64,000 bases of DNA from assembly GCF_036250755.1 (NCBI RefSeq), contig NZ_CP109583.1, positions 8,984,001 to 9,048,000 on the forward strand, read 5' to 3'. A program made the translations under genes and the position numbers. Source of the DNA: Streptomyces uncialis (GTDB taxonomy: Bacteria > Actinomycetota > Actinomycetes > Streptomycetales > Streptomycetaceae). Shown here piece after piece: positions 44,920 through 45,659 of the stretch. The notes under the pieces are model-generated. The model was given only the letters and a program-made list of their open reading frames with translations, did no database searches and was not told the origin of the DNA. How positions within the stretch are numbered: position 1 is the stretch's first letter; every line of letters begins with the position of its first letter.

Positions 44920-45659
44920 ATGATCGGCATGAATGCCCCCACATCGGCCGGTAGCCCCTCACCTCCCGACGAAGAGCCGGGCCGACAGCCGGGACGGGGC
45001 GGGAGGACGGGGGGCCTTCGCCGTGGGACGACGGCCTGGTTGACGGCGCACTGGTGGACCGGTGTCGGGGGCGTGGTCGGCGTGCTCGGTCTGTTCGTGG
45101 GCGTACTGGCATGGCTGGCGCCGGCCGGGGACGACGAAGTTCCGGCGGTCGGCAAGGCCGACCACCAGGGGCAGGAGAGGTGGAGCTCGGTGAAATCGCT
45201 CGGCAACGCGCCCCTGGACCTCGATCCGGTACCGCCGACCGCCGACCGCCGACCGCCGACCGCCGACCGCCGACCGCCGACCGCCGACCGCCGACCGCCG
45301 ACCGCCGACCGCCGACCGCCGACCGCCGACCGCCGACCGCCGACCGCCGACCGCCGACCGGGCGTCGGGGTGACATCTGGGTCGACACCACCGAGGCGCT
45401 GACGGCCGACTCCGCCCTCGTTTCGCCGAGCGAGCTCAGTGGTGTGCGGAAACGGCGCCTGACCGATGCCCCGTCCCTCCATTCCTGCCGCAGCGAGCTG
45501 CGGCGCCCGAGCGAGGACGAGGTGAGCGTGAATTACGGGCACTTCTTCTGCGTCCGCACCAGTGAGGACCGCGTCGCCGTCATCGCTGTCGACTCCGTCT
45601 ACCAGGACGACTCCGGAGCTGCGGGAGCCCGGTTGGCCATCACCGTGTACGAGAAGTGA
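44920..45659 (+). CDS. Membrane-anchored protein split by an 18-copy heptanucleotide repeat (frame-switch candidate)
   Basis: Frame 1 from ATG 44920 (44929 possible) gives a polar N-terminus, one membrane helix (about residues 44-68, VVGVLGLFVGVLAWLAP) and a linker entering the repeat at 45234. After the repeat this frame ends at 45402. The downstream domain lies in another frame: GDIWVDTTEALTADSALVSP, SVNYGHFFCVRTSEDRVAVI and ARLAITVYEK, stop at 45659. That extracellular beta domain with two Cys resembles exported Streptomyces domains of unknown function. Adding one repeat unit or removing two would fuse both parts. As sequenced, the gene is in a phase that makes only the anchor plus a short tail. 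Confidence 0.6.
45234..45359 (+). repeat. Heptanucleotide tandem repeat, 18 perfect copies of GCCGACC
   Basis: Unit GCCGACC repeats without error for 126 bp. Because 7 is not divisible by 3, every reading frame through it encodes the same repeating heptapeptide TADRRPP, but the exit frame depends on copy number modulo 3. Confidence 0.98.

Follow-up and report, generated by a model that had tools for sequence, protein, structure and literature searches.

A heptanucleotide array that sets the reading frame of a candidate phase-variable membrane protein gene in Streptomyces uncialis

In Streptomyces uncialis, the copy number of a perfect heptanucleotide array determines whether a gene for a predicted membrane-anchored protein can be read through to its end. 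The gene lies within the window, a stretch of 64,000 nucleotides of contig NZ_CP109583.1, where 18 GCCGACC units split it between two reading frames. The sister strain S. uncialis DCA2648 carries 10 units, with which the gene is open throughout and encodes 227 amino acids. Control of the frame by copy number is well supported. We lean toward reading this locus as a living gene for a single-pass membrane protein that is frame-switched by a slippage-prone array in a variable loop of its domain. The parts of the gene in the window are as follows.

44920 to 45230, + strand: 5' part of the gene, with N-terminal tail, membrane anchor, linker and first domain motif (ORF, codon score, profile match to the anchor)
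45031 to 45117, + strand: predicted membrane helix, residues 38 to 66 (AlphaFold2 model of the DCA2648 protein)
45220 to 45237, + strand: LDPVPP, the family motif LDxxxP, in the anchor frame, ending within the first bases of the array (22-row alignment)
45231 to 45360, + strand: heptanucleotide array, TADRRPP encoded by all three frames (Tandem Repeats Finder, unit count, phase reading)
45361 to 45402, + strand: OFF tail of 13 residues and a stop, in the anchor frame at 18 units (ORF, phase reading)
45360 to 45659, + strand: 3' domain part, in the other frame at 18 units, ending in TGA (codon score, homologue-only profile)
45486 to 45551, + strand: first to second invariant Cys codon (codons 45486-45488 and 45549-45551; Cys in 21/21 homologues)

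The 18 perfect whole units at 45234 to 45359, proposed in an earlier sequence-only reading, were confirmed by unit count and by Tandem Repeats Finder, which places the array at 45231 to 45360 (130 bases, period 7, 18.6 copies, 100% matches). Its score of 260 is the highest among the 24 rows of tandem repeats reported for the window, compared with 89 for the runner-up. The ORF list likewise contains the proposed anchor-frame ORF (44920 to 45402, 160 amino acids) and the different frame ending at 45659. Codon usage is Streptomyces-like in each half's own frame; the 5' half scores +7.1 in the anchor frame and the 3' half +23.8 in its frame, values reached by none of 5000 base shuffles in either case. 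The array starts about 103 codons past the start codon and, as expected of a phase-variable gene, lies within a reading frame and has a unit length that is not divisible by 3. Reading the gene at altered array lengths showed the proposed phase table to be right: at 18 units translation stops 13 residues past the array (GVGVTSGSTPPRR), one unit more or two fewer (19 or 16) restores the full protein, and the third phase stops about four residues past the array (RASG). That every frame encodes TADRRPP is also true, but it is not evidence of design, since any unit length coprime with 3 has this effect. No sigma-70-like promoter or terminator was matched at the gene with models that cover Streptomyces promoters poorly.

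A scan for peptide patterns derived from the 3' part, run on a single genome per species across 84,980 species and able to detect close relatives only, returned DCA2648 as the only other locus. Identity between the two strains is 99.3% over 3001 bases that reach into the array from its 5' side and 98.3% over the 2561 bases from the array onward. Across the 380-kb stretches compared, the 26 blocks longer than 1 kb have a mean identity of 98.3%, and 21 blocks above 95% identity have a mean of 98.8%. Within the gene, none of 312 bases differs 5' of the array and 3 of 300 differ 3' of it (one silent, two replacing), with no indels or stops elsewhere in these 612 bases. The 10 units of DCA2648 correspond to the phase predicted to be ON, so the claim that copy number controls the frame held in a second strain; nor is copy number fixed among relatives (18 vs 10), and the window copy (OFF) and the DCA2648 copy (ON) are in different phases in these two close strains (n=2). 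At one position the ON copy encodes Lys and the OFF copy Asn; this column holds Lys in 8 of 21 homologues and Asn in none, which is a possible sign of relaxed constraint in the OFF copy. AlphaFold2 modelled the DCA2648 protein poorly (mean pLDDT 50.6), with the helix at residues 38 to 66 as the sole well-scored part.

To place the gene within a protein family, we compared the DCA2648 protein with 295 genus genomes. At E 0.01, 77 genomes were matched, mostly on the TADRRPP repeat, and two weak matches that cover both anchor and domain (G110 and G022, E ~0.005) were taken further. A profile made from these two and the DCA2648 protein has matches in 69 of the 295 genomes, including those of G110, G022 and the window strain. 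In all 27 match ORFs that were read, a hydrophobic segment precedes the domain in the same ORF; none contains a frame-breaking perfect array of at least 28 bases, and an array of period 9 occurs in one. In 29/29 homologues read, anchor and domain are encoded in the same frame, as anticipated if the two halves in the window belong to one protein. A profile built from 21 of these 29 homologues, with the window gene and DCA2648 excluded and 8 more distant sequences dropped (L183, L185, L187, L188, L189 and L191-L193), recognizes the out-of-frame 3' half at E = 2e-10 and nothing else when run on the window's 892 six-frame segments. The sequence past the array, as expected of a phase-variable gene, still encodes a recognizable domain. 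The homologue profile also matches the anchor of the 5' half.

The window protein has the features of this Streptomyces family of anchored two-cysteine proteins, namely a membrane helix, a low-complexity linker, a domain with LDxxxP and two Cys, and a C-terminal TV[W/Y]. Both Cys columns, which hold Cys in 21/21 homologues, are kept, as are the invariant D, D, C, C, T, and V; the departures are Y at a near-invariant W and D at the near-invariant G of a GR motif. Its ON form is divergent, being 18% to 27% identical to other family members, and it has a frame-breaking array, unlike all 27 other ORFs checked. In the 22-row alignment, the invariant Asp (residue 102) and nearly invariant Pro (106) of LDxxxP fall before or at the start of the array, and the next invariant Asp after it is residue 133 of the 10-unit protein. 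Because invariant Asp columns flank the array, it is located in a variable loop of the domain, past the LDxxxP motif, and not between anchor and domain as it had originally been placed. The charges around the helix, positive before and acidic after, suggest that the two-cysteine domain is probably outside the cell. Searches of the 22 members against Pfam and NCBIfam gave no significant match (lowest E 0.072 in Pfam and, for one member only, 0.0084 in NCBIfam), the two window halves produced nothing near the cut-off in either database, and no PDB entry matched the 22 members at E up to 1. Two of three longer ORFs scanned (L179 and L189) are protein kinases with the same domain at their end, and the ORF of the latter contains a period-9 array.

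The gene itself was found in only two genomes, those of the window strain and DCA2648. When the 3' half alone was searched against 392 genus genomes, the result besides the gene itself was a 47-residue piece with an internal TGA (G351), which was rejected. The corresponding place on plasmid pSSP121038 matched at E = 0.6, mostly outside an annotated gene, and was considered chance. A search with the DNA of the 5' half against 100 relatives matched 39 genomes at E 0.001, all of it the locus itself and short chance pieces. Phages and viral contigs gave no match to the gene.

As a frame switch, the locus would work by gaining and losing units, with slipped-strand replication as the most likely mechanism, and so shifting the frame in which translation leaves the array. 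Copy numbers of the form 3k+1 (10, 16, 19) would give the full protein, with seven more loop residues for every three additional units, and the other two copy-number classes would leave a membrane stub that lacks most of the domain. Loop length and frame would both be set by copy number, because the array lies inside the variable loop. Switching in this sense presumes that the protein is made and that copy number changes frequently and reversibly within a lineage. Reversible, selected phase variation of this kind is plausible. Its fullest form, a selected contingency locus in which a surface-exposed, sensor-like domain is toggled by the array in its own loop and loop length varies among ON variants, is possible but doubtful, and we count it as part of the broader frame-switch reading. 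A family-conserved domain that appears intact on both sides of the array, in one ON and one OFF strain, points to a switch, as does the apparent lack of frame-breaking arrays in other genes over the 1.6 Mb surveyed. Counted against it is that the comparison comprises two strains, in either of which the state could be final.

Arrays elsewhere in the genome bear on a different explanation, neutral decay, in which arrays grow and shrink without function across the genome and one of them, in the loop of a dispensable gene, broke the frame with no selected switch. We regard this as a serious minority possibility. In the 380 kb shared with DCA2648, 6/6 perfect arrays differ in length between the strains; in one, the difference does not correspond to a whole number of units. 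An intergenic GCCGACC array that follows the stop codon of another ORF (L142 9084-9111, genome 8517084-8517111) counts 4 units in the window strain and 19 at the matching site of DCA2648, a shift of 15 units. Greater variability than in arrays outside genes, our own mark of selection, was not seen: the array in the gene differs by 8 units, compared with 15 for the intergenic one. Instability by itself therefore says nothing for function, since intergenic arrays vary equally; of the slipped-strand design originally proposed, frame control by copy number stands, and the array's variability does not set it apart from other arrays of the genome, including the intergenic one of the same unit. Five or more tandem GCCGACC units, searched as GCCGACC x5, occur in 41/384 genus genomes, the window genome included (a reversed control pattern was counted from the table in 23 of the same 384), and 28 of 30 such loci examined are outside genes. 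No coding label lies within 20 bases on either side of 21 of the 30, and seven are just past stop codons (L045, L051, L052, L057, L062, L068, and L071), several of them between convergent genes; at L045, L051, L062, and L068 the array (from 1501) is situated between convergent genes, 11 to 67 bases from stop codons. Of the remaining two loci, L055 adjoins a run of N, and L053 is the one other array in a split frame. That array (GCCGACC x5, L053 1501-1535, genome G084) is found where the coding frame of a possible TetR-like remnant shifts. Its downstream frame matches TetR_C weakly (E = 0.052) and shows more frame changes by eye, which is why L053 looks like a decayed regulator gene. This apparently decayed neighbor in kind, the finding of the gene in only two genomes, and the unusual Asn of the OFF copy are all in keeping with decay.

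Against decay, however, the OFF copy has no other stop or indel, its 3' domain is still recognized by the homologue-only profile, and genes are otherwise free of frame-breaking arrays in the surveyed 1.6 Mb of the window genome, yet here the array is long in both strains. Counting perfect arrays with periods of 4-12 and a length of 28 bases or more, that survey found 31, of which 16 are frame-breaking (12 heptanucleotide and 4 octanucleotide; none of period 4, 5, 10, or 11). Twelve of the 16 are labelled non-coding and three were read as outside genes, which leaves the array at 45231-45360 as the only intragenic one found. The three (at 8894747, 4125339, and 8517082) had received a coding label from a codon-based gene finder, which was rejected after reading. 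Assembly error, by which both strains would have the same true copy number or the window gene would really be in frame, is improbable. Arrays of 74-130 bases are difficult for short reads, and a term search of PMC8210685 did not locate the sequencing method for DCA2648; however, the DCA2648 assembly contains the intergenic GCCGACC array as a perfect stretch of 133 bases and is thus not limited to 74, the window genome consists of 3 contigs, and the array in the gene is perfect in both strains. Least probable, to the point of being barely credible, is that the 3' frame is translated independently, via an internal start or recoding at the array. A GTG at 45054 does open the 3' frame as a 201-aa ORF (45054-45659), but this frame scores -25.0 over the 5' half, compared with the anchor frame's positive value of +7.1, and anchor and domain occur in one ORF in the 29 homologues read. 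Automatic annotation could pick this ORF, in which the anchor region is read in the wrong frame.

The frame-switch reading has precedents in two known systems. The gene neuO of Escherichia coli K1 (prophage CUS-3) is an acetyltransferase gene with an AAGACTC array two bases past the start codon; it is ON when the number of units is a multiple of three, each three units add one heptapeptide, and its switching is established in the literature (PMC3046976). The two loci have in common a heptanucleotide array in the coding sequence, one full-protein phase in three, and an array length that also tunes the ON protein. Unlike in neuO, the array here is about 105 codons in, within a membrane-anchored domain, and the difference in frame is known from two genome sequences. 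The array is not just past the start of an O-acetyltransferase gene, and no acetyltransferase was matched in Pfam or NCBIfam. In Streptomyces, contrary to the earlier sequence-only reading, phase variation has already been described: Pgl phage resistance in S. coelicolor varies in phase, attributed to a G-tract in pglX, and changes in repeat length are held to toggle the gene at 10^-2 to 10^-4, as cited in PMC4365076. The window gene and pglX belong to the same genus, and the on/off state of pglX is likewise held to follow repeat length; in contrast, the tract of pglX is a homopolymer and its methyltransferase gene is part of a defence system, and the two loci showed no kinship in either protein or repeat. 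The array here is of heptanucleotides, and Pfam and NCBIfam detected no such methyltransferase domain. Literature listings, which lack most subscription journals, contained no heptanucleotide or simple-repeat phase-variable Streptomyces gene.

Both phase variation in Streptomyces and the heptanucleotide design are thus known already, from the pglX G-tract and neuO. As a selected contingency locus, the gene would join pglX as the second gene in Streptomyces switched by a repeat, in this case a heptanucleotide. The two strains of this free-living bacterium form a concrete pair, one ON and one OFF, and heptanucleotide arrays are common and unstable in S. uncialis. If the gene does switch, random variation of a surface protein would also occur in a soil group that produces antibiotics; if it does not, the locus is an example of array instability breaking a gene. 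In addition, the analysis points to an anchored domain without a family name that is shared by some Ser/Thr kinases and matched in 69 of 295 genus genomes.

Three further arrays were noted in these surveys. An ACTCCCG array (L130 6747-6792, genome 8894747-8894792) has 6 whole units here and 7 in DCA2648. It lies upstream of a 155-aa ORF, with its end 14 bases from the start codon and next to the likely ribosome site, where it could tune translation. In genome G213, GCCGACC x11 as assembled (L055 1501-1577) adjoins a run of N. A perfect CGGCAGG array of 142 bases and 20.3 copies (L216 15557-15698, genome 4035557-4035698) is labelled non-coding.
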